Program-made: the position numbers and the translations under genes
Part shown: positions 86 to 61,360 of the stretch, in pieces
Numbering within the stretch: the stretch's first letter is position 1
Layout: each line of letters begins with the position of its first letter
Assembly: GCA_015179045.1 (NCBI GenBank)
Contig: WHUZ01000067.1
Coordinates: 248,001-312,000, forward strand
Length of the DNA stretch: 64,000 nt
Direction of reading: 5' to 3'
From: Kalaharituber pfeilii
Lineage: Eukaryota; Ascomycota; Pezizomycetes; Pezizales; Pezizaceae
The notes under the pieces: model-generated
The model's database searches: none
Told to the model about the DNA's origin: nothing
Seen by the model: only the letters and a program-made list of their open reading frames with translations

Positions 86-933
86 CAGTCTACCCTTGCT
101 ATACCGGACCTCGCTATACCGGATGCACTAATACTAATACACCTTAGACTACCCCGCTTCACACTTGGCTGCCACTGCTGCTACCAGCCGCTGCTACCGC
201 TACCATCACTTGCTACAATGTTGTTTAAGTAATGGAAACTGGGCACTTCGTTGTTGCTTTTTCCATGTACTATCATTTCTGAGATTAGTTGTTAAGCACT
301 TATCACTTTCAAGATGTCTGACAGAGTAGATGCAACTACTGATCAGCCCTAAATAATAGGTTAGATACTTAGCATATCACAATTGCCCTGCCATGGCGAA
401 CAGCCGCATGCGGGGTTACGTGATATAAAAAAAAACAAAACAAAAAAAAAACAAGCATATCACAATTAATTTGGAGTATAGAAATCTCACCAATGTATCT
501 CGAAAATGTCTACCAAATTCACTTATCTTTTCTTTAGCATACTTTGGTTCGAGTCAAGATTTACATATTTGATGCTTCTCAAGCACACTCAGGCCCGATG
601 TTTTCTAGATTTTGTGAGCAACGCATATTTTGCGGGATATGTAAACAAGTTGATGAGAGGACTCGCAATATTAATTCTGACCGAGGGGGGTGGAAGCGGA
701 CCACGCGCAGCGTGGTCTGCAGAGAAAAAACTTATTTGTTCTCCGCTTCTGAAAGGTATTAAGTTGATGTTTACTTAATTCATTTCTATTTCAGTAATTA
801 TTAAATTTGCAAAATTTTTTCACCACCCCAGCCTCGAACCCCTGTCTGCCAAGCATTTTATTCTATACCGGAACCTTGTTGAACCGGAGAAAATTGCCAG
901 ATTTTAGCATTCCGGTATAGCAAGGGCAGACTG
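86..933. mobile_element. Non-autonomous Tc1/mariner-like element (no transposase)
   Basis: Terminal inverted repeats of about 24 bp bound this element: it opens CAGTCTACCCTTGCTATACC and the reverse complement of its right end reads CAGTCTGCCCTTGCTATACC. Both ends abut a TA dinucleotide (84-85 and 934-935), the target duplication expected for the Tc1/mariner/pogo superfamily. No transposase reading frame is visible, so it must be mobilised in trans or be dead. A hairpin retroposon (385-453 plus its duplication) is nested inside. The superfamily follows from TIR plus TA; the pogo/Fot1 subgroup is only a guess. Confidence 0.75.
385..453 (+). mobile_element. Hairpin retroposon, family B, nested in the Tc1/mariner-like element
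   Basis: A 69-nt insert made of a GC-rich hairpin (CCCTGCCATGGCG, small loop region, GCATGCGGGG), a short linker GTTACGTGATAT and an A-rich tail. It is flanked by a perfect 14-bp direct repeat AGCATATCACAATT at 371-384 and 454-467. The A tail plus TSD show target-primed reverse transcription. The hairpin and linker match the 3' ends of the longer family B LINE pieces at 4287-5290 and 14733-15213. Confidence 0.85.
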
Positions 934-935
934 TA

Positions 936-1939
936 TTGGAATTGACAAAAAATGTCCTACTAAGGAGGGGAGCAGGGGGGCCTGCTGAGGCTGAAATACC
1001 CCCAAACACACTAGCTTACAGGTGAACTCATCGTTATGGTTGCGGACGGCTTTAATCAACACTATGTAACACTTCATTTCGCTTACTAATACAGCCTTTT
1101 TTTTTTTTTTTTTTTTTTTTTCGCTCTTTGATCCCCCTCCGGAATACCTCTACTGTATAGAATATACGCCTCTTGCACTTCGCTTTCATACCCTCTACCA
1201 TACGGAAAACCGCCCTCGCCCTCTACTGTGCAGAATACATACCTCTTGCACTTCGCTTCAACTGTACAGAATTAGAAGCAGCAAACCAGTTTATAATCTT
1301 TTATCCAAAGTTTCATTGTGAGTTGAATTTTATTGATTTTGGTGTGCAGCAAAATACTATGCTCGTGAGAACTGTCAATATAACTTTGAATATTTACGAG
1401 GTACTGTACCTGCTGCTTTACTTTCTGTAAAGGTACTGCTTCTATTTTTCACTATTATGAGCACTGTATGCGACTTCTTAATGCATACTTTAATGGATAT
1501 ACCTATGAAATTAAACAATTTCAGGAATGTATATATAAAAGTCAGCGGCAAGTGGTGGATAAAAAGCACATGGTAATTACATATGCTTTGTTCTCATGCC
1601 TCATATACTTCAGACTTAGCCCTTTTAAGAAAATTTCCTGCTTACTAATACATAGTCTTACCTAATTTGTACTAGTAGTATGTAACTCAGTTAGAGGTCT
1701 CCCACCAAAATTTGCTTTTCTTTAACGTTCGATAACTTTTTTACAAAAATTTGCAAAATTAAAAACGCAATATAGATTGATTCTTTACTCAATTCTGTTC
1801 AAATGTATATGCAGTTTGATATTTTTACGATTTTTGTTATGTTCTTATCGGGTTTTGAAATTTCGGATCAAAATATGTTGATTAAAGGTGTCCGCAACCA
1901 TATCCATACGAGTTGGGTGCACCACTTTGCTAAATATGA
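936..1939. other. Spacer without a supported gene; one imperfect direct repeat
   Basis: No coding region is supported here. A poly(T) tract lies near 1098-1122 without an adjacent hairpin. About 42 bp starting CCTCTACTGTATAGAATA (1147-1188) recur at 1218-1259 as CCTCTACTGTGCAGAATA, both containing CTCTTGCACTTCGCTT, a local duplication with roughly 70 bp spacing. The rest is AT-rich spacer. Confidence 0.5.
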
Positions 1940-2198
1940 TAAGAATGGCTGAAAAGCCTGCATCAAAAAAAATCGCGCTCGTGCGCCTGAGAGGATAGGT
2001 CTTGAAAACAAGTTTGTCTGGTCGTGGTTGCGTAACTTAGGTTGTAAGTTCACTGTCATAATTCGCGCAGTATTTCAAACGATTTTCTGCCCTATAATAA
2101 GCAAGGCAGTTCGTTGTTTGCGACACTTACTCTCCGAAGTGGTATTATGCCGTTGGTCGCGCGAGTACCTCAAATCAGTTATTCCCTCGAGAGACATA

Positions 2199-3894
2199 AT
2201 GGTCCTATATCAAATACCAGCAATAATGTCAATTATAAGGAGAGTTGGGGTCGGGCCTTTAATACGTCAGGTCGAAGCTCTCTGGATGCGTCGGGTCGAA
2301 GCTTTCTGCATACGGAGAGTCTTGCCTTCCTTGTTTGATTCAGTGTACACAGTATACCTCAACCTACTTGTGGGAGGTACTCTCGTCGGAACCTCAATCT
2401 GGAAAACACTGCATGACTATAACTCTCAGTCCAGACAATGTTCGGAACTGCCTGGGAATGCAGACATGTATGGTATTGGCATCCGCATCAGTGTATATCT
2501 CCAGCTCATTGGCACGATTCTCATTGATGTCATCAGCCCCAAATTGGCCGCTGCAATGGCCCCTGTGAATCTTTGGTTCTTCTTGGCCATTAGCATAGCC
2601 TTATGCATGACTCTTTGGGACTCAACTGCAGACGTGGTCGACCACTATATTATCATCGCCATGGGGAACGGAATCTCAATAATCTTGCTGCTAGAATGCG
2701 AGAACTTCGACATGATATGGAAACCAGCGCTCGAATATGCATTGGTCACCATTTCTCGTATCGTCCTGGTGTGCTTCTGGCAGGTGTGCGTGTTAATGTT
2801 CTGGTTTTTCAAGCTTCCAGCCAGTAAGCAAAGACAGATTCAACAACAAGAAGATGGTGAGGCGCTCTGTGGACCGTTTGGCTGGCTATTCACCCAGATG
2901 CCCCTATCAACTGGCACAGGCTTCTATAAATTCGAACAAGTGAAGGCCGTGTTCTGGTTCGCGGTGTACTGCCTGCTCATACGGAAAAATATCTTTACCT
3001 TGGCAGCAACCTGCTTCCATATACTGCAATTCCGTCGGAAATATGAATTTTTACATAGACAGGTCCCTGCAAGTTGGGTACTTCTACTGGATTATTTTTT
3101 TGCTATTCCTCTAAATGAGCTCACTATAATCGTATATGGCCCTCCTGAGACGCGCATCCAGGTAAGTGAGTTAGTAAAGAATTCTAAATTTTTGATTAGA
3201 TAATTTATGACGAGGGGTTTTTTTTTTCTTTTTTTTTCAATATCATTACTCGAACGCCGCCCTATGGGCTATGACGAGGTCGAGGCGTTGTGCAGGGTAA
3301 GCTAATCCGCCTCAGAACCTTGCCGGTGGAGCCCCGCGAGTTTTCCGCTATGACGAAAGTGTTCGGGTTCGACTTCTCAGCCATGTGCTCCACCGATATT
3401 GTGTCCCACGCGCTGCAGCAGTGTCTCCGCAACCGCCACGTCCATGGCAAGACTTACAGCCGAAGGAACCACATGGCCTGGTCCTCCCGCCCATAACGTA
3501 CATTGTCAGTGGAATTTTGTACCTCGCGAATGCAATCATGACAATCGAATTCACGATCATAATCAATAGGATAAGCGAAGTGAATGATGTGCGGTCCCTA
3601 GGGCAGTTGGTTGCCCTGGTGGTTGGAGTGGGTGGGTTTTGCACCTTGGCGGTACACCTGTTTCGTGATCTTCGTGAAAATCGCCTAAAGAGCGCACAAG
3701 GTGAAGTATGCTATGAGAGAGAGTGGGCGCCGGGGGATATTCACAGTATGCTAACGGAGGTATCTGAGACCGTCGACTTTCCTGCTAACGAGGAAACCTC
3801 CATGGAGGACCCGGTTGAGGCAGCTGAAGAAGGCAGAGCAAGGAGTTTGGGGATTGAGAGTGAGGTCGAGCTGGCTGAGCCAGGGGCGGAATGA
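2199..3894 (+). CDS. Multi-span fungal membrane protein, copy A
   Basis: Two exons, 2199-3161 and 3316-3894, joined by a phase 0 intron (donor GTAAGT, branch GCTAATCC, acceptor CTCAG), give about 513 aa. The ATG at 2199 is chosen because it aligns with the ATG of the paralogue at 18757. Several hydrophobic spans are visible. Shared landmarks are PGNADMYGIGIRISVYLQLI in exon 1 and SEVNDVRSLGQLVALVVGVG in exon 2. I recognise the general pattern from uncharacterised fungal membrane proteins but know no function. Copy A has an extra N-terminal stretch containing a near-tandem repeat (VEALWMRRVEAFCIRR) and an acidic C-terminal tail that copy B lacks. Its intron is 154 nt because it carries a hairpin retroposon (3216-3269); without the insert and its duplication it is 90 nt, matching 86 nt in copy B. 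Two more retroposons sit just downstream. Confidence 0.75.
3216..3269 (-). mobile_element. Hairpin retroposon, family A, inside the intron of membrane gene A
   Basis: Read on the minus strand, this is the family A hairpin (CATAGCCC, loop ATA, GGGCGGC, then CGAGTAATGATAT) followed by an A-rich tail. A 10-bp repeat TATGACGAGG flanks it at 3206-3215 and 3270-3279, although this partly resembles the hairpin start itself. The paralogue at 19660-19745 has an uninterrupted intron at the same place, giving an independent empty site. The insert lies between donor and branch point. Confidence 0.85.
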
Positions 3895-3951
3895 GAAAGG
3901 TCTAGCACTGCAGGCACCGGCGCCGTCTTGAGTGGTTTCAATACATGGCTG

Positions 3952-3999
3952 CCCTGCCTTGGCAAGCAGGGATACGTGACAAAGAAAAAAAAAAAAAAT
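3952..3999 (+). mobile_element. Hairpin retroposon, family B (short variant)
   Basis: This insert consists of CCCTGCCTTGGCAAGCAGGG, itself a near-perfect stem-loop, then GATACGTGAC and an A tail. Flanks TACATGGCTG (3942-3951) and TACCTGGCTG (4000-4009) form a TSD with one mismatch. The paralogous 3' flank near 20270 reads through without the insert. The apical part of the usual family B hairpin is missing, so this is an internally shortened copy. Confidence 0.75.
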
Positions 4000-4021
4000 T
4001 ACCTGGCTGGAGCTGAGTGAG

Positions 4022-4050
4022 TTTTTTTTTTTATATCAATACTCGCGTGC
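4022..4050 (-). mobile_element. 29-nt retroposon fragment, family A
   Basis: Only the 3' half of the family A hairpin plus tail is present: on the minus strand GCACGCGAGTATTGATAT followed by A residues. It is flanked by a perfect 11-bp repeat AGCTGAGTGAG at 4011-4021 and 4051-4061. The paralogous sequence near 20282-20292 (GAGTTGAGCGAGTGCC) carries one copy and no insert. This is the shortest insertion here that still has a clear TSD. Confidence 0.8.
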
Positions 4051-4282
4051 AGCTGAGTGAGTGGCTATAGCTACGGCTGAAGGAGGGAGAGGCTCAAGGG
4101 TGGGGCGCAGGAATTCGAGTGAGGCTGTAGCCTGTAGGGTTGGTTTGTTCATGTCGTGGGTTATGTCGACGTCTTCTAACCTCTTTTCTTGGTTTATTTT
4201 CATTTTTTCTATTTACCTTTTCTTTCTACATTGTAAGATAGACAGTATCCACTACTGGCTTGCGGCGGACCGGAGCGGTGAG

Positions 4283-4286
<4 letters not shown>

Positions 4287-4321
<35 letters not shown>

Positions 4322-5290
4322 ATAACCCCGCTTGTAGCACTAAGCCATGTGGGCAAGCCCTCATAGCCCGGAGACAGGCTAAACTAACTCTCTACGTACA
4401 TGGCCCCCACGCGCCGTCGCCCCCGCTCTCCTAGATTCTGGAACTTGACCCCGCATTCCCCTACCTTCTAGAACTTGACCCCAGCGAAGAAATTCTCCAA
4501 AACGTCATACTCCTCCCCATTCTCCGCCTTTCTCTTCCAATTCTTTTCCATGTCGCCCCACCTCTCAAAGCCTTCTGGACGGTTCTTCTGGTTTCTGCAT
4601 CGGAAAGCGAGGTGCTCCCCGGTTTGCACCTCCCCGCACCTGCACTTATCCGACTCAGCCGCCCCTATCCTCTTCAACCACACTGCACACCTCCCTCTCT
4701 CCAGGCGCAAGGCAGTGAAATTGGATACTGCTATCCTATTCCACTCCATGACCTTTCCTCCTCCAAAACCCTCCACTTCTCTCTTCTCCTTCCTCCACGC
4801 CTTCACCCTCTGGCGCACCCCACTTCCGGTGGCCACCTCCTTCCCCTGCATCACCGTCCCCTTCTTCGCCCACTCATCCGCCTTCTCATTGCCTGCGATT
4901 CCGATGTGAGCTTTTACCCACAACAGTTTCGCATCCCCCCCTTCCTCTTTCTTCTCGCCACTGCATTCACCACCCTTCTCACATCCTCCGTCTTTCCCTT
5001 TCCCTCCCTGCCTGCCTTCTGAATCGCCATGACAGCAGCTTCAGAATCTAAGCAAACCAGGACCGGTACCTCCTCCGGTACACTCTCCAGCGCACTTCTC
5101 ACCCCTCTCACCTCCCCGTCAAAAACCGTCGCCGTTCTCCCTACTACCTCCGCCACCACCGCTGATCTCCCCCACACCCCCGCCCCCACCTTGCTGTCCC
5201 CGACCTTACTGCCATCCGAGAAGAGAACCGCTCTCCCTCTTCCGGCTTCCTCAACCGAGGTCTCCCACTCTTCTCTCCCTCCCCCCTTTC
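4287..5290 (-). mobile_element. 5'-truncated LINE (RNase H and C-terminal Cys/His region), family B tail
   Basis: A 1,004-bp minus-strand insert with a 14-bp TSD GAGCGGTGAGAACT at 4273-4286 and 5291-5304. Its tail is a long A tract (poly-T on the plus strand) preceded by the family B-type end GCGGGGTTATGTGATTTA. Coding remnants are an RNase H domain (LFSDGSKVGD, DSEAAVMAIQK, LWVKAHIGIAGNEKADEWAK) and a downstream CRCGEVQTGEHLAFRCR Cys/His module ending at 4468. The frame breaks at a run of six G residues (minus strand) near 4936-4941, just before the LWVKAHIG motif, so this copy is not intact. The domain order fits RNase H-bearing fungal LINEs of the Tad1/I type. Confidence 0.85.
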
Positions 5291-5304
5291 GAGCGGTGAG
5301 AACT

Positions 5305-6109
5305 GGCGGAACGAACGTACGACCAAGGACCAAATGCGAGTGTGAGTGCGAAAGCGTGAGAGCGAAAAAGAAGAGAAGAAAAGGTTGTTGATTGTATGTG
5401 CTAGAGTACAGGAAATCTATATATATGATATCGCCTCACGTGCTGCCCTTATCTGCAGGTGCCTTTCATGCCAAGCTTTACCTCTTACCTATTCCGTCGT
5501 CGTCACCAGTACTTGCATTGCGCAATATCGGCTAGCGCGACTGCCAAAGCCATTGAATATGAAACAGGAAATAAAAGATGTAGGAGCTACATGACTATGG
5601 AAATGATCATGCTTAGGAGGGCTGGTTTTCGAAATGAGATCAATATGCTTTCACATTTGACTACCTTCATATATTTAGTTTCCTGAACTATACTTCGGGC
5701 AGCATGCCTAGTAAAGATGAAACAATAATCCTGTATTGTATTTAAATTTTCTTGAGGCAGCTACAGTACCTCAAGCCGTCCCTTCCGCCTTCACTCAGAA
5801 AACCTTTTACAGTCAACAACCCTATGGCCATACTATCCCGCTACATACTTACATACCAACATTCCCGTCCTATCACAACAGATAAGAATTTTTGTTCTGG
5901 TTAATGACAGATCGATATGAACATTTTTATCAAGGAAGTAATATATATGAACGAACATCCATACTCATAACCTATGGTCGATCTGCGAGAGGCGAATTGT
6001 TGTTTGTGTCCGGGGACGTGGATCCTCCCACTCGGTCATGTGAGATAATCCTCCATAGATTGTGCATGCGCATGATTAGAGTAAGTCTGCTTTGGAACTG
6101 ACGGGCCTC
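5305..6109. other. Flank of the duplicated segment; no supported gene
   Basis: Parts of this stretch resemble the region downstream of membrane gene B. ACTTGCATTGCGCAATATCG near 5510-5530 matches ACTTGTATTGCGCGCTATCG near 20388-20410, and the block around 5755-5870 (GGCAGCTACAGTACCTCAAG) matches 20527-20640. It is therefore the 3' flank of the old segmental duplication, expanded in copy A. I see no coding region. Confidence 0.5.
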
Positions 6110-6131
6110 CTCACTGTTACGGAGTCTACGA

Positions 6132-6880
6132 CTACAAGTGCCAGGCGAGCTGATGGTAATCACCGACTCACAGACGGCGATCGCAAAACTACAAAAGATA
6201 GCGAGAGGCGACCCCACACCCGACGGAGCCGCCAGCGAGGTGAGGAGACGTTGGGAAGAAAGGGCAGCCAGGGGTGATCTAGACCTTGCGATCATGTGGG
6301 TCAAGAGCCATAAAGGAATACAAGGCAACACGGGGGCGGACCAAGCGGCGAAAGTTGGCACTGCCTTGCGCAGCGAAGACGAGATAGTGACAGAGCCAGG
6401 AATAAGACAAGAATACAAAGCATCCAGAGCTGCCGAAAGGAACCAAGCCGGACTGAACTACCGCCCACTCCAAAAGGTCGACAAACGCCGGTATCTGGCC
6501 ACAATGGCAGGGATATTGGGCAATAAGGGACTGAAGGAATGGAGATTCAGGATTGGAAAGGCCACCTCCCCGGAGTGCAGATGGTGCGGCGAAGCGCCGG
6601 AGACCTGGGATCACATAAAGAGTAGCTGCTCGGCATGGAACAGGAAAACCGCAAGAGGAGCAGACGTGATAAGACAGTTAGATAAGGACACAAACATGGC
6701 GGAAATATTGGAATGGGCGGGGGAGGAATAGGACGGTTCAATTTTTCTTTACTCTTTCATTATTGATTTTTCTTTACTCTTTCATTATCATTTTTCCATC
6801 ATACCACTGTAACTAAACATCGCCATAGCCCATAGGGCGGCATGCGATTAATGAAATAAAAAAAAAAAAAAAAAAAAAAA
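6132..6880 (+). mobile_element. 5'-truncated LINE (RNase H to 3' end), family A tail
   Basis: An insert with 13-bp TSD ACGGAGTCTACGA (6119-6131 and 6881-6893). It encodes, open from the left end to 6731, the second part of an RNase H domain (VITDSQTAIAKLQ, IMWVKSHKGIQGNTGADQAA) and a CRWCGEAPETWDHIKSSC Cys/His module ending EILEWAGEE. The 3' UTR finishes with the family A hairpin (CGCCATAGCCC, ATA, GGGCGGCATGCG, ATTAATGAAAT) and poly(A). This copy links the small family A hairpin units to a coding LINE. Confidence 0.9.
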
Positions 6881-7324: not shown

Positions 7325-7372
7325 TGGAGAGCCACACATCGCCATAGCCCAAAGGGCGGCACGCGATTAATG

Positions 7373-7403
<31 letters not shown>

Positions 7404-7961
7404 TGGAGAGCCACGGAGAGGAACCGACTGGTTCTCACTTATAGACCGCTGACACGACTACGGCGAAGTGTCTCGACACTCGCTGGCATACTGGGGGGCA
7501 AGGGACTGAGACAATGGCAACACAAAATCGGCAAAGCCTACAGCCCGAAATGCCGATGGTGTGGGGAAGAGGAGGAATCCACCACACACGTGCTCACCAG
7601 ATGCAGGACATGGAAGAGAAAATGGCCAGGAGCATGGCGGACCTGATTGAACCACCTAAGAGCAAGGACAAGGACCCTCTAATGGACATTCTGGAGTGGG
7701 CGGAGAAATGACGGACAACTATTTCTCGGATTAAATCAGTCTATTCCACTTCTTTACTTCTTTCCTATTTCACACTTACTCCCGTAGGCACGAGATTACG
7801 GACTATCTTCTCTCATATTTATTTCCTATAGGCACGGAGACTACGGACTACTGTATTTTCTTTCATACCTATTTCTGTATTCCTTTCCCATATGTATTTA
7901 ACCTCGCCATAGCCCATAGGGCGGCACACGAGTACTGATATAAAAAAAAAATAAAAAAAAA
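7325..7961 (+). mobile_element. 5'-truncated LINE C-terminal fragment, family A tail, with nested hairpin unit
   Basis: Flanked by 13-bp TSD TAGCCCCTTTGCA (7312-7324 and 7962-7974). It encodes the last part of LINE ORF2 (ILGGKGLRQWQHKIGKAYS, then CRWCGEEEESTTHVLTRC), but the frame shifts before the terminal MDILEWAEK, so it is decayed. The 3' end has the family A hairpin GCCC-ATA-GGGC, then ACACGAGTACTGATAT and an A-rich tail. A hairpin retroposon (7336-7402) sits 11 nt inside its left edge. Confidence 0.85.
7336..7402 (+). mobile_element. Hairpin retroposon, family A, nested in a LINE fragment
   Basis: 67 nt: ACATCGCCATAGCCC, AAA, GGGCGGCACGCG, ATTAATGAAATT and poly(A). A perfect 12-bp TSD ATGGAGAGCCAC lies at 7324-7335 and 7403-7414. 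The left end is within 3 nt of the hairpin base. Confidence 0.9.
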
Positions 7962-8622: not shown

Positions 8623-11600
8623 TCAGAAACTACGCTCACCCTCCCCCTCTCCCTCCGCTATTCCGTCCAGAATTTGCGTTTTCCACGCTTCAGCCTCTCT
8701 AATAAACCTCCCTAGGGTTTGGAGATCCACGAAAATTTTTTCTCTCAGTTGCTCAGAATCCATTTCTAACAGGTCCCTTGCTTCCGGTTGAGTAAAACGT
8801 GCTTTGGTTTTCTCCACATGTCTCGATCTTTTAGCCAGACGCCCAATTAGATCTTGGACCTCTTTCTTAAACGCGCTGGTTACCTTAGATTCCTGACCGG
8901 ATCTTGTCAACGCCGCTATTGCTAATTCATGCGTGCCTTTGAACAACTGTCCTAACTGGAGAATCCCTTTGAGCAGGTCCAACCCCCTGGTTTCAAGGAT
9001 GATCGTTTGCGGTATTGGTGTCAGGGCATGCGCTATAATGGCGTCGATTATTTCCTCAGCTTCTTGTGAGAAGGGCGCGTCCCAAAGGTCCCCACACTGT
9101 CGCAGCATCTTTATCAGAGGAGAGTATTGTTTCTTGACGCCTTTGCTGATACAGCAACGGTGCCTGTATTGACATATTAACGGGGTTTATCAAGAGAAGA
9201 GCGAGGATGACAAACTGATTCCAATAGGCGATTAATTCAGCGAAGCGTTCTCCTCTGCGATAAGCTGTAACAGCATTATCGTATTCATTGGCCATGTGGT
9301 AACAGGTTGCCGCTTTCACAAATTCACCAGCCCTTTCATACCATATGCCAGCTTTGCCGTACTCCTCGTCGGCTTGCAATACCTGCGCAGCTTTGATGTA
9401 GTCTCCGACAGCAGCATAGGTTTCGGCAGCTTTTTGGATAAAAAATGCATCATCGAATAATTGTGCTGCTCTCAGAAATAACTCAATCGCCTGTGGACTC
9501 AGGTTATTCGACTCGTCAACGTCCAACCCGCTCGCCTCCTCATACAATAAGTAGGCATTAGCTAAATTTTGTCCCTGTTGGTGTTGCGCCCTCCGAAAAA
9601 TGAGTAGGGCCTGGTCATGATAATCGTCTATGAGCGAACTGTCCATCTACTAAATAAAATCGGTGATGAAGGGGTGCTAACATCCTCGTATAAACCCTGA
9701 TGGAGTAATGCTTCGCCACGTTCTTTCCAAGCCCGTAACTCCGTACCTCTACTAGGTTTAATAATGTCTTTAGCTTCTTGCTCGCCCTGTTATAAATATT
9801 GATATTTAGCCCTTGTCTCCTAAGGACATGTTGGGATACTACCGTTGGGCTGTTTTCCACAACAGATATCAGTGGCTCCTTTAATTCTTCGACCCTCGTC
9901 CACAACTTCACTATGTTTTGCACTGACTCTGGATCACTCTCTACCATCCAAAGATTGTTCCTCGCACGAGTAGCCGCCACGTACAGATGCTTCAGCTCGG
10001 TACATAGTCCCTAATTGATGTTAACTAAGATATTGGTGTTCATCCATTCATGTTTTCCGTTAGACGGTGTCTATTACGTACCGCGTACTTTTTATCCAAA
10101 TATCTGGCTGCTTGCTTATCTAAAAGGAGACTCAGAACGGATGTGCCCATGCTTTTCCATACAGAATCACTGAAAAAATTGTATAGGATCACATCATCAA
10201 ATTCGAGTCCTTTACTCTCAAAGATGGTTAATATCAATGGTGACTTTAGTTCTTTCTTTAACTTCTGCTTCGCAGCATCATCTCGGACGATAATAACTTG
10301 GTCTGCTCCAAAACACACCGAACTGGCCTCAGTTTCAAGTGTCCCTGTGCCAGGTTGTTTGAGGATGGTATAATCAAAACCCACTGTATGAAGCATTAGG
10401 TAACGTTTCTTTGTTTTTTGTACTGTAGAGCGGCTGTTTTTGAAAACTAACTTACCAAACATAGTTGGCTTCGTTCCCGTATAGGTTCCAACCTCTCGCG
10501 GGAGAATGTCAATTTGTGAAGGAAAACCTTTTTTCAATACGGATCATGCATAAACATCATGTCAAATTGGAGATTCTGACAGCTTTCGTGTCACTTACCG
10601 TTATAGAGTAGTTGTACAATATCTGCCGCCAAAGAGAGAATTCCTTGATGGGATCTGTAGTTCTTGGCTAATTTGTAGAGTTCAGGCTTTGCCCAAGAGT
10701 CTTTCCGAGCCTTGTTAGCCATTGCGGAAAAGTGCTCATGGAATCTCGTCTGAACATCTTGGAACCGGAAAGTATTATCTCTGGAAATGCATTGTGCAGT
10801 GTCTCCAGCTATTGAAGTATTAGCAATATAAGATCTTCCGTAGACCTAAGTCTGATTGCCAGCGTCCTGGGGCGCAATAATAGAAATACAAAAAACCCTG
10901 ACACTAACCGAAGTGAATTCCACGCGGGTTACGGACCAGCGTAAGTAGAAGATCTATCTCCAGTAATTTATTGTCCTGTACTTCTGTATTCTTTTGTTAG
11001 CTTCTTACACCATGCAGACGCAAATGTTCCCCTGCCATGGCGAATAGCTGCAAGTGGGGTTATGTGATATATTTTTAAAACAAAACGCAAATGTTGACAA
11101 ACCATCAACGTAAACCTCATCAAAGAGGCTTTGAACGCTCCGCTTTAAGTTTTGATCCTCCTCCAATGATCCTAAGAGGTAAGTCACCCTATCGATGTCG
11201 TCTCGATCGCCTAATGAACCCTTCTTTCGTTCATAGCTCTGGTAGATGTCATAAACCGTACTCCGCGCATCAGTGAAGACTGGCGCCCTTCGGGCACTCA
11301 GTTCTAAATACTCTTCCCTCGAAAGTGGTTGAAACTTTCGTTTGCTGGATGTAGATCCTTTAATAATTCCAAGGATTTCGGAAAACACGAGGTCAGGTTC
11401 AAATCCTTTCTCGCGATCATATACATACTTCTTCCAATATTGATCTCGATAAACATTATAATTAATCATCCTTGCTACCCTCCGCATTATGGTAACCTCC
11501 TCCCATCTACGCCCTATTAACGCAGAAAAATCCTTGCGATCATTAAGCCTATCACGGTGTTAATAGTTTAAAAACTCCTATGATCACTTGCTACTTACCT

Positions 11601-14333: not shown

Positions 14334-14640
14334 GACGAGCCGAGCCAGCTCGAGCTTATGACAGCCAAGATCACGCTAGTGTTTCTCTTGACAGCTCGCG
14401 AAAATAATGCTCAGCCAGCGCAGGGCTTTATAAATTGTAAATACCTAATATGGTAATAAATTAGAGACTCGGAGCTCATTCCAACCTGCCAACAACTTCT
14501 ATAAATATCAAAAGTGGTTCAATTACATAGACCTATATCAAGTCTTGTACGTTTAATATCTCTCAAGCTCAGCTGTAGAATAGTTTAGATTAGTTATCAA
14601 TGTCATGTAATCAAGGCTCGCTGGCTCGAGCCCACCTTAC

Positions 14641-14676
14641 CTCGCCATAGCCTGACAGGCGGCAAGCGAGTAATGA

Positions 14677-14707
<31 letters not shown>
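14641..14707 (+). mobile_element. Hairpin retroposon, family A, in the hAT MITE
   Basis: CTCGCCATAGCCTG, A, CAGGCGGCAAGCGAG, TAATGATAT and about 28 A. The apical stem is GCCTG/CAGGC instead of GCCC/GGGC, a paired change. The flanks TCGAGCCCACCTTAC (14626-14640) and TCGACCCCACCTTGT (14708-14722) form a TSD with two or three mismatches. Confidence 0.8.
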
Positions 14708-14732
14708 TCGACCCCACCTTGTATTTGACGAG

Positions 14733-17577: not shown

Positions 17578-18052
17578 TATCACTATATACAAATGGTCGG
17601 GAAATGCCCTCTTCTACCGGTACGACTAGCTCGGAGGTATCCAGTTCCATAGTTGCTCTTCTTTTCACTCCCCTAGCAGCGACGGCAAGGAGGATAGCGT
17701 TTCTTTTCTTGTTGGGATGGCATCTTTAGTGATTTCTTAGGTGTGTCTACACCTATTATTATTATATGAGTTCATTTCCTTACTTAAAAAGAAGCTATAG
17801 GGCAGGGTATACACATCTTTGGGGACGTAACTCAAGTTATCCGATGCCAAATATCCGTTTCGATATCGAGATATGGGGTGCGGAATCCCTGAGGAGAGCG
17901 CGGGAAAGGGGATATCATACCATGCAATTTGCCTATTGGTCAGCAACCTGACGAATGTAACAGATGGGTGGGATTCACAGTGGGGTTACGTGTAAAAAGC
18001 AAATGGCCTGTTACACGACCATATCATTCAGCTCTGGCAGCCCTGGCTTTCT

Positions 18053-18121
18053 CCCTGCCATGGCGAATAGCTGCAAGCGGGGTTATGTGACACAAAAAAC
18101 AAGGGAAAAAAAAAAAAAAAA
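18053..18121 (+). mobile_element. Hairpin retroposon, family B
   Basis: CCCTGCCATGGCG, AATAGC, TGCAAGCGGGG, TTATGTGACAC and an A-rich tail with a few C and G. I cannot identify a clean TSD. The left end again starts exactly at the hairpin. Confidence 0.75.
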
Positions 18122-20677: not shown

Positions 20678-20750
20678 TTTATTTTTTTTTATTTATTAAT
20701 TTTTTTTTTTAATATCATTAATCGCATGCCGCCCTAGGGGCTATGGCGAT
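20678..20750 (-). mobile_element. Hairpin retroposon, family A
   Basis: On the minus strand: ATCGCCATAGCCCC, TA, GGGCGGCATGCG, ATTAATGATATT and a long A/T-rich tail. Perfect 12-bp TSD TTGCTATACTGT at 20666-20677 and 20751-20762. Confidence 0.9.
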
Positions 20751-20841: not shown

Positions 20842-20913
20842 CCTCGTCATAGCCTACCAGGTGGCAAGCGAGTAATGATAAAAAAAAATAAAAGAAAATA
20901 AAAAAAATAAAAA
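20842..20913 (+). mobile_element. Hairpin retroposon, family A
   Basis: CCTCGTCATAGCCT, ACC, AGGTGGCAAGCGAG, TAATGAT and an A-rich tail. Perfect 13-bp TSD TACGTAGTTCTAT at 20829-20841 and 20914-20926. The apical stem pair is CCT/AGG, again a paired substitution relative to CCC/GGG. Confidence 0.9.
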
Positions 20914-25967: not shown

Positions 25968-26493
25968 TAGTGAGCGGCACGAGCCGAGCCAGCTCGAGCC
26001 AGCTCGAACTCAAACGAGCAAAGATCATTCTAGTGTTTTTCTTGCCAGCTCGCTAAAATGCTTAGCCAGCGCAAGGTTTCATAAACTGTAAATACCTAAT
26101 ATAGTAATAATTAGAGACTTGGAGCTCATTCTGACCTACCAACAACTTCGAAATGCACAATTTAGCTGATAGTAGTGAGAAAGATGAAAATTTAGCTTAG
26201 TTTAGTTTAGTTTGTCAATATTATATATATAATCAATCTAGGCTCGAGCCGAGCTCACTTACCCACGACATCTTGGAGTGGGCAGGGGCATAGGAGACAC
26301 ACAGGATCTTTTCTTATTCCTTTTCTTCTACCTTCATATGTATCTAATCTCATGTAACTAATCTCACCATAGCCCCCAGGGCGGCACGCGAGTAATGATA
26401 TAAAAAAAAAAAAAAAAAAAAAAAATCACTTACCCACGAGCTGGCTCGAGCTCACCCTCCAGCTCGGCTCGAGCTAGCTCGTGCCGCTCACTA
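25968..26493. mobile_element. hAT MITE with a nested LINE tail
   Basis: TIRs TAGTGAGCGGCACGAGCC and GCTCGTGCCGCTCACTA with 8-bp TSD CACAGAAC (25960-25967 and 26494-26501). The interior matches the other copies (ATGCTTAGCCAGCGCAAGG, TTTAGCTTAGTTTAG). Without the nested LINE piece and its duplication it is about 355 bp, longer than the 281-291 bp copies because it has extra subterminal GAGCTCGAGC-type repeats near the right end. Confidence 0.9.
26269..26425 (+). mobile_element. LINE 3' end, 157 bp, family A
   Basis: Perfect 14-bp TSD TCACTTACCCACGA (26255-26268 and 26426-26439). It begins with the last codons of ORF2 (DILEWAGA then stop), followed by 3' UTR, the hairpin CTCACCATAGCCC...GGGCGGCACGCGAG, TAATGATAT and poly(A). 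It is intermediate in length between the hairpin-only units and the coding LINE fragments. Confidence 0.9.
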
Positions 26494-26533: not shown

Positions 26534-26588
26534 CTCGCCATAGCCCACAGGGCGGCATGTGAGTAATGATATAAAAAAAAGGAAAAAA
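26534..26588 (+). mobile_element. Hairpin retroposon, family A
   Basis: CTCGCCATAGCCC, ACA, GGGCGGCATGTGAG, TAATGATAT and an A-rich tail broken by GG. The flanks CCCAAAATAG and ACCACAATAG give only an imperfect duplication. Confidence 0.75.
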
Positions 26589-26969: not shown

Positions 26970-27030
26970 CCCTGCCTTGGCGAACAGCTGCATGCGGGGT
27001 CACGTGAAAGAAAAAAAGAAAGAAAAAAAA
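26970..27030 (+). mobile_element. Hairpin retroposon, family B
   Basis: CCCTGCCTTGGCG, AACAGC, TGCATGCGGGG, TCACGTGA and an A/G tail. Perfect 14-bp TSD ACCTACATGAATCG at 26956-26969 and 27031-27044. The left end is exactly the hairpin start. Confidence 0.9.
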
Positions 27031-30058: not shown

Positions 30059-33000
30059 CCAGTGTCGATGGGCGAGGAGAGCGTGAGGGGACGGAAGAGG
30101 AGTTGCCTTGGATATGCATACTGAATTTATAGATCTTTTTTTCTTTTTTTTTTTCAAGGAATCCCAGGGAATAGGAATAATAGAGCTGTTTAATGATATT
30201 TATATAGACATACTTGTTTTAAACTAGGAGCAAAGCTGCATCTGCGAAATTTGTATTTCAAATTTGTGCAACTGCACAACTCATAGAGTTGGAGCTCTCC
30301 GCCTTCCTATAGCATAGGTTCTCTTTGTTCTTCGTTCATGATGTGGAGGCAATACACACCATCAGATTTTTCACTTGTTACACTGCAGCGTTAGCCGCAC
30401 GTTTCCTGGGGGTTTCGGTGTAAAGAAATTTGGGACAATTTATGAAGTTGGGATTCAGATAGTCTGATGGATTGAGACAGGTTTGCTGGAAGGGGAGGCT
30501 TGGCAGCTAGTCTTGAGACTTTTCAGCTACGATATGCAGCGGGTGGACGGGATCTAGGCAAAGGCTAGTCTGATTACAAGACTAGGCAAAGGCAATGTTA
30601 TAATCGGTATTCTTGGTGTCACTGTTACCTTCAGGCGGACAACCCATTTCCTCGCATCGGGGCAGGCAGGGAAGCAACGAAGTAGTAAAACCAAGCGTTT
30701 GTTTTTTATTTTTTTCCTTTGTAGTTTTGAATAGTTACGTACATACACAACCGGTAATAAGGCATGAAGCCAATGCGGCTGCGGCGCTGATACAGTATAG
30801 GTAGGTGGTTGCTGATTTCGCTACACACGGCAATGCAGAAACTTTGCGTAGAACGATTTACGCACAGCTCTCAGAATCTGATAAGATAACGCTAAATGAC
30901 TTTTGATTTTATTGCTTACGAAGGGCAAATCAAAAAGCGTAAGGCACTACTAATAAGCTCTGAAGGAAGAACACTAGAAGCTGAGAGAACCTTGTAGGCA
31001 TCCCGATTTCAGCAGCACTCGGCTTCTACTGTTCGGGCGGATGATTTACCCTCTTTCAATAATTTCCCGTACTCCCTTTTCATGTTTGCTTGAGAAGATT
31101 TAGAGTGGAATTGCGGTCGCTTCTCTCCATGTATGTTGTCTATACAAAGGCGCACATGAGTGGGAGGAAAAAAAGTGTGCTAAGTCCAAGAAGCAAAAAA
31201 AAAAAAAAAAGATCAGGGCAAAGAATTACCTGATTCCGCTGGTTGCAATCGAACAACACTCGCGGTTTTGCACGGGATCTGGAGAAGTTGCTAAATATAA
31301 GTCTTGGTCTGTCGCTCTCAAAAGGCGACGTCACAAATTCCAAAGATTTGCATCTTCCGGCGTTACCATTTGCTGATACACACATTCCTACCCTGCAGTG
31401 GGCCGGTTTTAAACTCCGCCAAATTGCAGGTAGAATCTGATAAAAATTTGTTCGCAAGCAAATTGGCTCGGGTGCCTTATCATATCTTCCATCTACTTCG
31501 GGTCGTTAAAGCTGGAATCACAATGCCATGCAAGGATGTGCAAGGATAACGTATAAAATTGATGTCCGAACAAAGTTAGTCTGATATGGTTTGCAGTTAG
31601 ACATGAATAGATGGACAAGTCGCTTCTTATAGGATAATGAATGTGGAACGGATTATGATGTTGAAATTGTCGCTGACTGCTAAAGAAAACCTACGTCTTG
31701 TGCCACACACCGCAATGGGTCTGAACAAGGCTCAGCATTTGCGCATCCTCGTTACGGAGCTTCCATCCTATCTGGTTCTGCGGGTAACTTAACGATGCGG
31801 AATGAATACCTATGCCATTTCTGCCTCAGCGCAAACTCTCCCAAGTAGCGTAGAGAAATGAACTGCTCCTTCAAAACTCCAATAAAAACGAGATATTCTC
31901 GCGGTTCAGTGGATAAATCCTCATGAATTCCAGTATCTCGATACTACCATAAACGTCTCCGCGCTAATGGAATAGGCTATTCACTGCGCTGGAACTGATA
32001 CCCGGTAATGTGCCAAGAATGAGGTACAGCCCATCCAACGATTACAAAACCCTTGCAACCTTGCATGAGCTATACTCCCTACCAATTTGAGGTGAAGAAG
32101 CGGTGTAAAGAATTATTTCGCTTTCCGGAGGAATTGAGGTGAGTTTCCTTTGATTATTCCATTTGGTGGTTGGTCGCAGAAAATTTCTAGGCGTCGAACA
32201 AGCTTCAGCTATAATATATAACAAGTCAAACTAAGAATTTGCACAACGGTAAGTGAACGCCATTTTTCTCCCGGCCTAAATTTAACGTGGATCCGCAAAG
32301 TCTGACATACATGCCGTATGCGCTTAGCGTTGAAGGGATTTATTGCTTCCATCTCCATTCCAGTCCGTCTCATACAGGTGACTATGACATTAATTGTCAA
32401 CACGTTTCGTTTCAGAGTAATTCTTCTTTTTGCAGGCAGTGGCATGTAGAATTCTTGTTGCCCGTTCACCGTTGTCGTTATTTACCCATCATGGCATATC
32501 CAGATTTTTTTTTTTTTTTTTTTTTATATCAGTACTCGCATGCCGCCCTATGTGCTAGTATGGCGAGGATTTATTAAAAGAAGGACGGAAATTAACGGCT
32601 AAATACATGTAGCATATCCAGAGACCGGCCCCATGCCTCTCACTGCCGCAACGAAACATTCACATCCCGCACAACGTCTGCCCAGAACCGCATACTTTAA
32701 GCATTCAGCTTATCGTTGCGCTGCAGACAGGCATTTCGAATTTATTAACCTATTTGGGAAGGGGTTGTTTGATACGAATGGAAAGTTATTAGCACTTTGT
32801 TGGTTTTTGAATTTGAATCTGGTAATGTGATCACAAAAAGAGTCACGAGACCCCAGTATTACTGCTCCGAGATGCTCTCTTGCCCAGCACCCTTCGCATA
32901 TTCTGTCGGGTCAACATACAGATTGGTAGGCCTGCACAATTGGTGGAGCACCAGACATAGAGGGGTTGCAAACCCCGAGAACATCTCTGCACTTGCTGAG

Positions 33001-47821: not shown

Positions 47822-48480
47822 TTTTTTTATTTTTTTTTTATTTTCACATATCCCGCTTGCAGCTGTTCGCCATGGCAGGGTCCCTGGACCGAGGTCCTTA
47901 TGGCCCGGAGACAGGCACCTAAAAACAAACAACAACTCACTATATACACCGACATTCAAAAGGGAATAGAGGAAATAAAACCCATGAGACAACCCGCTAT
48001 GCCGTCAAGTCCATTTCCTCCACCTCCCTCCCCTTCCCCTTTCTGTCCACCTTTGAATTTCTATCCCAGTCATACAGGCACGAATCGTACCACTTGCCTG
48101 ACAAACTTACCTTCGCTGGTGTTTGGCTACCCGATTCCACCTCCCCTCCAGGTAGATGACAACCGAACTAGCCTTCTTTCCCTCCCTCCTCTCTTTCTTC
48201 ACCAACCATCTTGCCGCAACAATCTTTCCCATCCATGGGTTCGCATTCTCCATCCAATCTCTTACTTTCCCGAGTTTCTTTGTCACCGCAATTCCATGTA
48301 CTACGATCGCACGACCGGATTGCGGGAGTGTCCTTTCCTTTGGGATTGGCTTCGGAGATGGTGCTGGAGATGGTTTCTTGGACATTTTCTGCTTGGGGGG
48401 ACTGGTACTCTGTCCCCCTTTCACTTTTTTGGACTGGAAAGCAGAATTTTTCTTGTCCATTTGTGCCTGTCCTCACCTTT
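47822..48480 (-). mobile_element. LINE ORF1 fragment joined to a LINE 3' tail (half-LINE)
   Basis: The minus strand encodes a Gag-like ORF1 piece from about 48460 (RAIVVHGIAVTKKLGKVRDW, then RWLVKKERREGKKASSVVIY) that stops at 48107. About 180 nt later comes the family B 3' end: TGTCTCCGGGCC, then CCCTGCCATGGCG, AACAGC, TGCAAGCGGGATATGTGA and an A-rich tail. The reverse transcriptase and RNase H regions are absent. No clear TSD was found. The ORF1 identity rests on resemblance to Tad-type ORF1 proteins. Confidence 0.6.
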
Positions 48481-49169: not shown

Positions 49170-49964
49170 GTTTTTTTTTTTTTTTTTCTTTTAATTCACG
49201 TAACCCCGCATACAGGCTATCAGCCTATGGCAGGGACCCATATACCCGGGCCAGGTTTGGAACACCTAACTACGGAATCTACATGCACATCTTGAGCACT
49301 CAGTGCTCTCCGTCCCCGGCTACCCCAGATCGAGGCAGGCAAACCAGTACTCGACAGGGTCGCCCTCCACACCTTCTTGCTTCCACCCTTTCTCCTCTAG
49401 GTCCTCCCAGGACTGCCAGGTGACATGCGCCCCATCTTTGTCCTTCCTCTGGGGTCGCTCCAGTTCGGTGCACCTGAACACCACATGCTCAGCACTCCAT
49501 GCCTCACCACATGTACATTGTACCTCCTCGCCACTGACCATCCTCCTCCACATACTGTAGCTCCGCCTTTTCCAGTCCGCAGCCATGTGTAATTTGTGAG
49601 TGCTCTCCTGCCCCACTTCACGAATTTGCCCTTCCCAAACCCTGCGCGCTCCCTCTCCTCTTTTCTTTTTCGAACTAACTCTTGACGCAGCCCACCCTCA
49701 GTGGCCTGCCTATCATACCTCATGCACTTGGCCCCCTCTTTGGCCAACACATCTGCCTTCTCATTGCCTTCTATCCCTACGTGGGCCTTGACCCATGCCA
49801 GCTTCACTGCATCCGCCTCCCTTAACCTTTGCCGCCTCTCTGCAATCAGCTCTATCACCCGTGCTAGATCTGCAGTCCTTGCCTTGCCAGTTTTCCTGCT
49901 TTCTGGACTGCACTGATAGCTGCCTGAGAGTCTGCGAGTAGTAGCACTTTTTCACTGCCATCAA
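49170..49964 (-). mobile_element. 5'-truncated LINE (RNase H to 3' end), family C tail
   Basis: Minus strand: KVLLLADSQAAISAVQKAG, WVKAHVGIEGNEKADVLAKE, then CTCGEAWSAEHVVFRC in a shifted frame, ending YWFACLDLG at 49320. The 3' end is GGGTATATGGGTCCCTGCC, ATAGGCT, GAT, AGCCTGTATGCGGGG, TTACGTGAATT and an A-rich tail. At least two frameshifts show decay. I found no matching TSD. It is the closest relative of 58568-59907. Confidence 0.8.
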
Positions 49965-54002: not shown

Positions 54003-54071
54003 CCTCTTTTTTTTTTTTTTTTTTTTTAACATCACATAACCCACTTAGCGCTATTCGCTATGGCAGGGTCA
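54003..54071 (-). mobile_element. Hairpin retroposon, family B
   Basis: Minus strand: ACCCTGCCATAGCG, AATAGC, GCTAAGTGGG, TTATGTGATGTT and an A tail. TSD of 11 bp GACCTCAGTCT at 53992-54002 and 54072-54082. It lies about 60 nt upstream of the pseudokinase ATG (54133), so probably in its promoter or 5' UTR. Confidence 0.85.
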
Positions 54072-58427: not shown

Positions 58428-58439
58428 GATGTTTTCTAT

Positions 58440-58495
58440 TTTTTTTTTTTTTTTTTTATATCATTACTCGCGTGCCGCCCTAGGGGCTATGGCGA
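58440..58495 (-). mobile_element. Hairpin retroposon, family A
   Basis: Minus strand: CTCGCCATAGCCCC, TA, GGGCGGCACGCGAG, TAATGATAT and A tail. Perfect 12-bp TSD GATGTTTTCTAT at 58428-58439 and 58496-58507. Its left end is exactly the hairpin base. Confidence 0.92.
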
Positions 58496-58954
58496 GATGT
58501 TTTCTATGTACTCACTCGATCTACGATATGTGGGCTTGTACAAGGCATAATCCATCCAATCATCAATTCACAGATGGCAGCCGCAGTGAGGAAGGAGGGG
58601 TTGGAGGTGGATGGTGCTGGAGGCAGGTCGTGGCAGGAGAGTCAGAAGGGTCGCGGTGGGTTGGCACTAAGGCGACGGTGTGGGATGGAGAGGTCGCAGG
58701 CATGAGAGGGGCCCTCGAGGCGGTGGATGGCAGGGCGAAAGTGTTACTGCTTGCAGAGTCTCAGGCAGCAATCAGCGCAGTTAAGACAGCAGGGAGAACT
58801 GGAAAAGCGAGGACTGCAGATCTGGCGCGTGTGGGAGAGCTTGTGGCAGAAAGGCGGCGGAACTTGAGGGATCGCGGAGCTGTGAGGCTTGCATGAGTTA
58901 AGGCCCATGTGGGGATAGAGGGCAATGAGATCGCAGATGAGAGGGCCAAGGAGG

Positions 58955-59288
58955 TAGTGAGCGGCACGAGCTAGCTCGAGCCGAGCTGGAGGGTGAGCTC
59001 GAGCTGGCCTGGCATGAGCTCGAGCCTGGATTGATTATATATATAATATTGACAAACTAAACTAAACTAAGTAAATTTTCATCTTTCTCACTACTATCAG
59101 CTAAATTGAGCATTTCGAAGTTGTTGGTAGGTCAGAATGAGCTCCAAGTCTCTAATTACTACTATATTAGGTATTTACAGTTTATGAAACCTTGCACTAG
59201 CTAAGCATTTTAGCGAGCTGGCAAGAAAAACACTAGCATGATCTTGGCTCGTTTGAGCTCGAGCTGGCTCGGCTCGTGCCGCTCACTA
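58955..59288. mobile_element. hAT MITE, 334 bp, nested in a LINE
   Basis: TIRs TAGTGAGCGGCACGAGC and GCTCGTGCCGCTCACTA, 8-bp TSD CAAGGAGG (58947-58954 and 59289-59296). Orientation is as in 15369-15659. It has extra subterminal AGCTCGAGC-type repeats near its left end. Confidence 0.92.
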
Positions 59289-59450
59289 CAAGGAGGGGGC
59301 CAGATGCATGAGGTACGATGGGCAGGTCACTGAGGGTGGTCTGTGGTAGGAGTTAGTTCGAAAGAGAAAGGAGGAGAGAGAGCGTGCTGGGTTCGGGAAG
59401 GGCAAGTTCGTGAAGTGGTGCAGAAGGGCCCTCACCAACTACACCTGGCT

Positions 59451-59508
59451 TTTTTTTTTTTTTTTTTTAATATCATTACTCGCATGCCGCCTGAAAGGCT
59501 ATGGCGAG
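59451..59508 (-). mobile_element. Hairpin retroposon, family A, nested in a LINE
   Basis: Minus strand: CTCGCCATAGCCT, TTC, AGGCGGCATGCGAG, TAATGATATT and A tail. 8-bp TSD ACCTGGCT at 59443-59450 and 59509-59516. Removing it restores the LINE reading LTNYTWLRTGKGGA, seen intact at 49170-49964. Confidence 0.92.
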
Positions 59509-59921
59509 ACCTGGCTGCGGACTGGGAAAGGCGGAGCCATGTGGAGGAGGAAAATCAGCGGGGAGGAGGCGCGGTGTTGAACATGTGGTGTTCGAGTGTG
59601 GTGAGCTGGGGCGGCCCAGGAGAAAGAAGGAGAGTGGTGAGATGGTACGATGGTCACCTGGCAGGGCTGGGAGGACTTAGAGGAGAAAGGGTGGAAGCAG
59701 GAGGGGGTAGAGGGCAACCCAGTCGAGGTATGGTTCGCCAGCCTCGATCTGGGGTAGCTGAAAGGCCGGAGGGTACGTTGTATACCAAGCGTGTACGTAG
59801 TGTAGACAGGTAGCTGCTTTAACCAGACCCGGGCGGGTATATGGGTCCCTGCCATAGGCTGGTAGCCTGTAAGCGGGGTTACGTGAATTAAAAAAAAAAA
59901 AAAAAGAATCCAATCATCAAT

Positions 59922-61360
59922 CCATACAATATTAGGATCACCTGCTGTGTATGCTGCGGTTTACTTGATGTCGCTATCATGTCTGATGCTAAAGATATTG
60001 CCTGTGGAAATGTGAGAGAAGAAATCTAGCTCACATCCTAGTCTATTGGTGAGTGTCCTCTCTACCACCCATCACATGTATTACCCTCTCAGCAGGCAAA
60101 TTCCATCGTCTGTGCCACACTCGCTCAGTATTTAGTTTCGATTTAGTGTCTTCCCTGCGAAAGGTCTGCTCTCCTGCATTGCAGCAGTGAAGACATTCAA
60201 TCGGCCTGAGTTCAGGTGACACATTTTGCCTAGTAAAACGTATCCATATGGTCTACCAATCATGCCGTTTGTATCCGACTGTAACCTCGCTCCCCTACCA
60301 CTGTGCAATCCCGCTAGCTGAATCCGCAATTTGCTAGACATGGAGTGGGGTGTCTGTTATTTTTATTTCCTTTTTTTGAACATCATCTCTGATATCGCCC
60401 TGCTGCAGCTCACATCGTAGCTCGTATTCGGAGGAAATTTTACGTTGTGCCAAAGCAACCATATAATAACAATGCAGAACGGGAGAGAAAATCAACCAAA
60501 GCCATGAATGACGTCCTAACCTGTTTCCAACGGAGTATGATACGATGCTTCCCCGCGTACGAGCGGGGCCCTTCTATGTCTCATACTAAGGCCCTCCGTC
60601 TCGCTTATGTGGCAAGCGACTTATCCCTGCCCTGCCATGGCGAATAGCTGCATGCGGGGTCACGTGATATTAAAAAAAAAAAAAAAAGACTTCCTTATCC
60701 CAGAATAGCTAGGGGATGCTGACAGGGGTGCGGGCTATGGTACAACACGAAATGAATACTGAAGAGCTAAATCAGGAATTACTACTATTTTGTATGTCTA
60801 TTAGCACATGACAGCAGCAATTCGCCTATATATGCTTTCCAGAAAAGTGTGCTGTATACTCGCTACAGAATTCTAGGCGCCCTGGCGCATGCTGTCAGCA
60901 CCCCCCTGGTGTTCCGGTATTAGTGCTCGTATCATGTAGTAGGCCCTAACTAGTTCTGTACCAAGTGATCTCCTTCAAGCCCCATGCTATGGCCGATTTT
61001 GGGTGGCAAATTGACTGGGTAATGATCTCTTGTAGCAATATGTGATTGCCAGCGTGACAGCCAGCAAGCTTGGCCCAGGTTTATAGGTAGGAACGTATAA
61101 TTTGTGTAGTTAAAGTAAAAATTGAGCCATTGGCGCGCCTTGCAAATATACATCGATTTTTTCGCACCTGAGCTAAGCTGTGTCCATCACCTGTTTTTAG
61201 TACTTGCAATACAGCCCTACTGTCAAGCGGCCTATTCAGGACTTGCGATGCTCAAAATAACAATAGCAAACTCTTGGGCATTTCCTATGTCAGTTTTCCC
61301 ATGCTGATCACCTAGTCTGATAATCAACTTGATATTCACATTTTTTGTTCACATAGCAAT
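59922..61360. other. Spacer with one hairpin retroposon
   Basis: Apart from the unit at 60629-60687, no gene or element is recognised. The promoter of the right-edge gene should lie just before 61361. Confidence 0.4.
60629..60687 (+). mobile_element. Hairpin retroposon, family B
   Basis: CCCTGCCATGGCG, AATAGC, TGCATGCGGGG, TCACGTGATATT and 15 A. Flanks GACTTATCCC and GACTTCCTTATCCC form an imperfect duplication with a 4-base gap. Confidence 0.75.

Follow-up and report, generated by a model that had tools for sequence, protein, structure and literature searches.

Stringent long interspersed nuclear elements (LINEs) that carry a stem-loop at their 3' end are known, the Tad1 clade of fungi included, and in UnaL2, ZfL2-1/2 and SART1, as described in passages of PMC4176376, PMC3747384 and PMC5135761, a conserved stem-loop at the extreme 3' end is common to the LINE and to its short partner, a short interspersed nuclear element (SINE). 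In ascomycetes, a passage of PMC3747384 describes the same arrangement of a LINE and a short partner with a common 3' end for MgL and Mg-SINE in Magnaporthe and for Tad1-24_BG and SINE2-1_BG in Blumeria. Here, we describe insertions from Kalaharituber pfeilii that consist of one hairpin, a short linker and an A tail between target-site duplications (TSDs). They were analyzed in a stretch of 64,000 nucleotides (C325:248001-312000, hereafter the window) and in samples from the rest of the genome (78,031,657 bases, 360 contigs). For a LINE protein of this genome, the named relative with the best score comes from the same species, a desert truffle (83% identity over 53% of the query). We define a mini as an insertion that ends near the hairpin start and has a linker and an A tail, and give positions relative to the first model base. 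Because the −1 nucleotide and 3' linker of B minis follow those of longer parent elements, the minis look like retrocopies of the 3' ends of LINE-type RNAs, and not like a separate family.

Two hairpins are involved. Type A runs from TCGCCATAGCCC to GGGCGGCATGCGA and is followed by KTAATGATAT and the A tail, and type B runs from GCCCTGCCATGGCGAACAGC to GCGGGGT and is followed by YACGTGA and the A tail. The outer stem is common to both, with one two-sided exchange between the types (UA:15, CG:14). Within type A, one inner pair is CG in 23 and UA in 7 sequences and is broken in none, giving seven two-sided changes among 30 sequences, and none was found among the 16 distinct rows of type B. The 3' stem-loop is thus conserved across LINE groups, with covariation limited to type A and to the comparison of A with B, and the fold z-scores are modest (−0.2 to −2.7).

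An earlier, sequence-only reading of the window had proposed at least fifteen such insertions, ten of them with listed TSD pairs. All ten pairs are exact (14, 11, 12, 11, 12, 13, 14, 11, 12 and 8 bp), and the inserts between them measure 69, 29, 67, 56, 73, 72, 61, 69, 56 and 58 nt, so that all but the 29-nt insert fall within 56-73 nt. The unit itself, a single hairpin with a short linker and an A tail, inserted in the manner of a LINE, is as had been described. Multiple copies are indeed present, and our count is 14: eleven that end near the hairpin start with a TSD score of at least 8, one that ends inside the hairpin, and two likely cases below score 8. Two of the 12 insertions with a score of at least 8 score only 8 (59451 and 60628). 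The absence of a recognizable RNA polymerase III head also holds, since there is nothing 5' of the hairpin that could form such a promoter or a tRNA-, 7SL- or 5S-like head; ARAGORN found no tRNA genes in the window, and there were no Rfam matches at the gathering score. The 14 insertions are as follows.

385..453, + strand: B-type mini, 69 nt, TSD AGCATATCACAATT at 371-384 / 454-467; begins with G, then CCCTGCC
4022..4050, − strand: A-type copy cut within the hairpin, 29 nt, TSD AGCTGAGTGAG; only the 3' part of the hairpin
7336..7402, + strand: A-type mini, TSD ATGGAGAGCCAC; nested in the LINE copy 7325-7961
11029..11084, + strand: B-type mini, TSD ACGCAAATGTT
14639..14708, + strand: A-type mini, TSD CGAGCCCACCTT / CGACCCCACCTT, one mismatch
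18052..18121, + strand: B-type mini-like copy without a convincing TSD
20678..20750, − strand: A-type mini, TSD TTGCTATACTGT
20842..20913, + strand: A-type mini, TSD TACGTAGTTCTAT
26534..26588, + strand: A-type mini-like copy, imperfect TSD, score 6
26970..27030, + strand: B-type mini, TSD ACCTACATGAATCG
54003..54071, − strand: B-type mini, diverged, TSD GACCTCAGTCT
58440..58495, − strand: A-type mini, TSD GATGTTTTCTAT
59451..59508, − strand: A-type mini, TSD ACCTGGCT, score 8; nested in the B1-type copy 58568-59907
60628..60693, + strand: B-type mini, short TSD CTTATCCC, score 8

Two of these minis (7336 and 59451) are thus nested in longer copies that have these hairpin tails. We note also that at two loci outside the window, L035 and L037, a B-type mini sits within another B-type mini; both loci resemble copies of one duplicated stretch.

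At least four LINE groups (A, B1, B2 and B4) have the A or B hairpin as their 3' end, as does a longer LINE-tailed element, B3. In locus L098, a frame with RVT_1 and RNase_H domains stops 44 nt before an A hairpin and its A tail, and in L097, the stop of an RVT_1/RNase_H frame is followed after ~125 nt by a B-type (B2) hairpin. On contig C32, the reverse transcriptase (RT) frame of L096 (B4), which is 52% identical to that of L097, adjoins L085, a B4 tail, and matches to the C-terminal end of the L097 open reading frame (ORF) were found in seven long B4 loci. The minis therefore have, as the SINEs cited above do, a 3' end in common with LINEs of the same genome (L097, L098, L096/L085 and six further long B4 loci), and are most readily understood as tail-only copies, not as an independent retroposon family. 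A reading as DNA transposons (miniature inverted-repeat transposable elements) is ruled out by target duplications of 8-16 bp, one-sided A tails and identity with the LINE 3' ends. Three other loci with RT matches (L093-L095, not the three best matches) have chromodomain-like ends by eye, look like long terminal repeat elements and were dropped. In the last 600 bases of L098, a short B2-type tail copy lies immediately 3' of the poly(A) of the A-type LINE.

B3, a repeat with a B hairpin tail and a short ORF, is represented by L069, L070, L006 and L073 and, in the window, by 47880-48396. We had considered it a LINE group and now call it a LINE-tailed element because its long copies (L006, L069, L070 and L073) gave no match in a comparison with the RT-RNase H ORF. 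Copy L070 has a TSD 573 nt upstream and holds the short ORF, for which a Pfam search gave no match; the B3 ORF is 42-48% identical (L070: 42%) to an ORF that immediately follows the B2 tail of L097. Perhaps B3 is an internally deleted LINE that carries part of a first ORF.

The contrast between B3 and B4 connects individual minis with their parents. The base before CCCTGCC is A in B3, the exception being copy L073 with G, and G in B4, and it is A in 350 of the 1,792 copies of the B-type 19-mer CCCTGCCATGGCGAACAGC. The first 100 A places comprise 62 in a CAGGGA context and 38 outside it; 18 of these 38 were fetched, and proved to be seven TSD-flanked minis and 11 copies with B3 sequence upstream. 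The B3 linker occurs in 5/8 minis with −1 A vs 2/30 with −1 G (p 0.002), and, among copies with upstream context, in 13/19 with −1 A vs 2/22 with −1 G (p 0.0002). Since both the −1 letter and the linker go with the parent, the 5' end of the B minis appears to be templated, one base outside CCC. A cap origin of the 5' G of B4 minis is ruled out, because in minis with the B3 linker this base is A, as it is in B3 itself. An additional letter stands at −2 in 6 of 39 minis, in five of which it is not the G of B4, and these letters could fit run-off followed by untemplated addition.

The profile searches covered 285,486 bp (the window, 20 random 10-kb stretches and seven loci found by a B-type query) and gave 49 A-type and 34 B-type matches at E up to 1. 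The unbiased sample for mapping 5' ends comprises the window and the 20 stretches of 10 kb, picked without regard to tails (264 kb), and holds 66 tails, 41 A and 25 B. Twenty of these have a TSD-defined 5' end at −6 to 0 (10 A and 10 B; score at least 8), four end inside the hairpin, two end between −7 and −100 (at −45 and −95), and 13 have a TSD match with a score of at least 11 at 249 to 1,390 nt upstream, a zone that has no null of its own and whose matches serve as an indication only; the remaining tails are without a clear TSD. Matches at L023 4881, window 8451 (score 9) and window 3277 (score 8, where the match is the hairpin's own sequence) were left out of this tally as spurious, and L023 24-61 (score 7) was not counted. 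Chance rates were obtained by pairing the 5' flank of one element with the 3' flank of another: such mismatched pairs reach a score of at least 8 in 3.1% and at least 9 in 1.1% of cases in one set, and in 2.9% and 1.0%, respectively, in a second.

Among 40 consecutive, unselected places of the 19-mer, 25 have a TSD with a score of at least 9, and their 5' ends fall at −2 to 0 in 22 cases (in two, the match runs 2-4 nt into the hairpin), at −7 in one and at −38/−39 in two; seven of the 15 places without such a TSD have B3 sequence upstream. When the 92 distinct B (AAYAGC) copies in the loci retrieved are pooled, a set that includes letter-targeted fetches, 52 have a TSD with a score of at least 9 within 64 nt. 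These end at −2 to 0 (37), at −4 (2), at −7 (1), at −36 to −41 (11) and at −53 (1; L087, with a T run in between), and none of the 52 ends between −8 and −35. The minis are thus flanked by TSDs, as SINEs are, and have the LINE-identical 3' end, A tail and TSD of 5'-truncated LINE copies, but their 5' ends are not spread over the element as those of truncated copies would be. In long contexts, no more than 2 nt separates the observed 5' ends from the base of the predicted terminal stem, and mini RNAs folded alone are predicted to pair from the first base, partly by construction.

In B4, a second discrete class, of ~85 nt, starts sharply between −36 and −40, where another hairpin lies upstream of the terminal one. 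Of 22 B4 upstream contexts, eight have a TSD at −36 to −40 and 12 reach further (L075 to −93). The −38 end is the first base of an AAGCC hairpin, which is predicted to stand alone in B2 and to be lengthened by further pairs in B4. L087 starts at the upstream hairpin behind its T run and L086 without a clean TSD; L117 and L118, picked for a TGCACG variant, fall in the same class, and L007 (gap 41) is a B3-like case of an upstream-hairpin end. This class changes the sequence-only picture of hairpin plus tail as the smallest unit that can be copied, a picture that does not hold in the strict sense either, because inserts cut inside the hairpin occur (window 4022-4050, 29 nt; L013, L018 and L023).

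Copies are abundant across the genome: the 19-mer has 1,792 exact matches (reversed control, 0) and a 35-place A-type pattern has 3,204 (control, 0), both counts including the tails of longer copies. Of the 20 base-ended minis, nine come from the random stretches (200 kb in total), and scaling to the whole genome gives ~3,500 (Poisson 95% 1,600-6,700).

What can be read from the sequence alone is the LINE hairpin with its linker, the A tail, the TSD, the 5' end at the hairpin base, the second end in B4 and the −1 letter that matches the parent. To account for these together, we think it somewhat probable that the minis were copied from the 3'-terminal ~40-45 nt and A tail of LINE-group and B3 RNAs, by target-primed reverse transcription of a template already cut back to the hairpin. 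A LINE-type RNA would be shortened from its 5' side down to the terminal hairpin before reverse transcription, either by a 5'-3' exonuclease that is halted at the stem or at a LINE protein bound to it, or through a cut close to where the stem begins. Bound proteins or the stem itself would shield the hairpin stub as the remainder of the RNA is lost, and in target-primed reverse transcription of the stub the RT would run off at the hairpin base, because the template ends there. B3 yields mostly long copies, B4 mostly minis and A 10 minis among 41 tails, and as B3 and B4 have the same hairpin, their different outcome fits a property of the RNA, not of the hairpin. In a stronger form, to which we give a little less than an even chance, 3' stubs of ~45 and ~85 nt would be the main template of B4 retrotransposition in place of full-length RNA, most new B4 insertions would be hairpin-only, and the stubs would be the footprint of a LINE ribonucleoprotein, left thousands of times. 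Several observations weigh against a trimmed template. The terminal stem predicted in long context starts 1-2 nt before the 5' ends seen in the copies (B2, B3, B4 and A), that the fold of an isolated mini opens with a pair is partly by construction, A-type ends are fuzzier (−6 to 0), the −2 letters could be mutated TSD ends, and the TGCACG subfamily has many short and few long copies.

If the template were instead full-length LINE RNA, the RT would have to let go just after copying the hairpin, for example when a tail-binding domain loses its RNA tether on unwinding, and the minis would be "strong-stop" products. This reading suits the finding that copies end close to the base of either of two hairpins, and also the report, in a passage of PMC2104539, that the Magnaporthe MGL RT switches template at favored sites that lie just downstream of strong predicted hairpins. 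Pausing, however, is expected where the enzyme meets a stem, and the next paired region predicted in B4 ends ~5 nt further 5', whereas the minis end at −1; moreover, cuts inside the hairpin are seen in only four of the 66 tails, and B3 yields few minis with the same hairpin, which drop-off could explain if B3 uses another RT, as it may. On this evidence, we consider drop-off unlikely, if clearly worth keeping in view. It is more doubtful still that some of the minis belong to a separate nano-SINE lineage that lacks a promoter, is transcribed from a few favored copies and is amplified in trans by LINE proteins. A weak hint of such a lineage comes from the TGCACG variant, which is common among the listed G-type copies (18/100) and rare among long B4 copies (2 by pattern), compared with 38/100 and 37 for TACAAG (Fisher p 0.0017), and from the fact that, among the first 100 rows listed, each of the four TGCACG copies of G type that have upstream context begins at the upstream hairpin (three with a TSD; L086 without a clean one). 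Exact-match patterns, however, under-count old long copies, long B4 copies exist for TACAAG, TGCATG, CGCATG and TGCAAG as well as for TGCACG (two cases), the −1 letter and linker match the parent element, and the minis have no recognizable promoter.

Random 5' truncation, with the long copies later lost through selection or repeat-induced point mutation (RIP), strikes us as very improbable. Truncated ends do exist, both within the hairpin and over 95-1,390 nt, and long repeats may be eroded here: two AT-rich 1-kb segments, window 40001-41000 and 42001-43000 (GC 0.26 and 0.23), have RIP-like indices (TA/AT 1.42 and 1.31; (CA+TG)/(AC+GT) 0.65 and 0.63), which suggests that RIP acted on them. The minis are far shorter than the repeats on which RIP is known to act. 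Survivorship, however, cannot make ends at −2 to 0 and −36 to −41 with none at −8 to −35, so that the 5'-end map speaks against random truncation as a full account, while random loss may alter the ratio of minis to long copies.

Longer copies that end in the same hairpins are also present in the window.

4287..5290, − strand: 5'-truncated B2-type LINE copy with B hairpin tail, TSD GAGCGGTGAGAACT at 4273 and 5291
6132..6880, + strand: 5'-truncated A-type LINE copy with A hairpin tail, TSD ACGGAGTCTACGA at 6119 and 6881; RNase H ORF (6102-6731 frame)
7325..7961, + strand: 5'-truncated A-type LINE copy with A hairpin tail, TSD TAGCCCCTTTGCA
26269..26425, + strand: A-type copy reaching 95 nt upstream of the hairpin, TSD TCACTTACCCACGA
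32505..32611, − strand: A-type copy reaching 45 nt upstream of the hairpin, TSD GCATATCCAGA
49195..49951, − strand: RNase H ORF (49397-49951), then, the ORF lying 160 nt upstream of it, a B1-type hairpin tail (49195-49235)
58568..59907, + strand: B1-type copy with B hairpin tail, TSD ATCCAATCATCAAT

The four long copies at 4287-5290, 6132-6880, 7325-7961 and 58568-59907 measure ~640-1,340 bp and have TSDs of 13-14 bp. The ORF of the first has a weak RNase H match, below the cut-off, and a TSD looked for around the B1-type copy at 49195..49951 was not found. In long A-type copies, ATGTAACTAA / ATGTATTTAA is frequent just 5' of the hairpin (window 6820, 7904, 26364 and others). Elsewhere in the window, two related ORF groups at 1953-3894 and 18661-20168 share a GNADMYGIGIRISVY stretch and are apparently a local gene family with hydrophobic stretches, and 23162-25561 is a long ORF of 799 aa, ankyrin-repeat-like by eye.

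What ends LINE reverse transcription, and why copies fall short, is poorly understood, and thousands of copies that end at defined hairpins, together with the contrast between B3 and B4, make the choice between template end and enzyme drop-off directly testable. If a trimmed template is indeed used, ~45 nt of LINE RNA with an A tail would be enough for insertion, and elements this short may escape standard repeat annotation. Literature searches limited to open-licence papers found no description of hairpin-only copies with fixed 5' ends.

The described systems differ from the minis in instructive ways. The partner SINEs of UnaL2, ZfL2-1/2 and SART1 have, in the passages cited above, a tRNA-like or other head, and Mg-SINE and SINE2-1_BG are described in PMC3747384 as tRNA-derived, whereas here nothing stands 5' of the hairpin; the likeness of the 3' ends is for our elements one of sequence. 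The name of the Tad1 clade comes from papers on other fungi, and the present LINEs are recognized by their RVT_1 and RNase_H domains. With 5'-truncated, dead-on-arrival LINE copies the minis have the same kind of 3' end, A tail and TSD in common, but such copies are described in a passage of PMC3747384 as cut "at various positions", at 100-1,000 bp, while most TSD-bounded short copies here stop at one or two hairpins and measure ~45 or ~85 nt without the A tail. The MINE chimeras of Magnaporthe (WEIRD-MGL), as presented in part of PMC2104539, are alike in that an ascomycete LINE RT exits its template at favored sites associated with hairpins; in the chimeras the enzyme moves on to another RNA, whereas here the copy ends and joins the target DNA.

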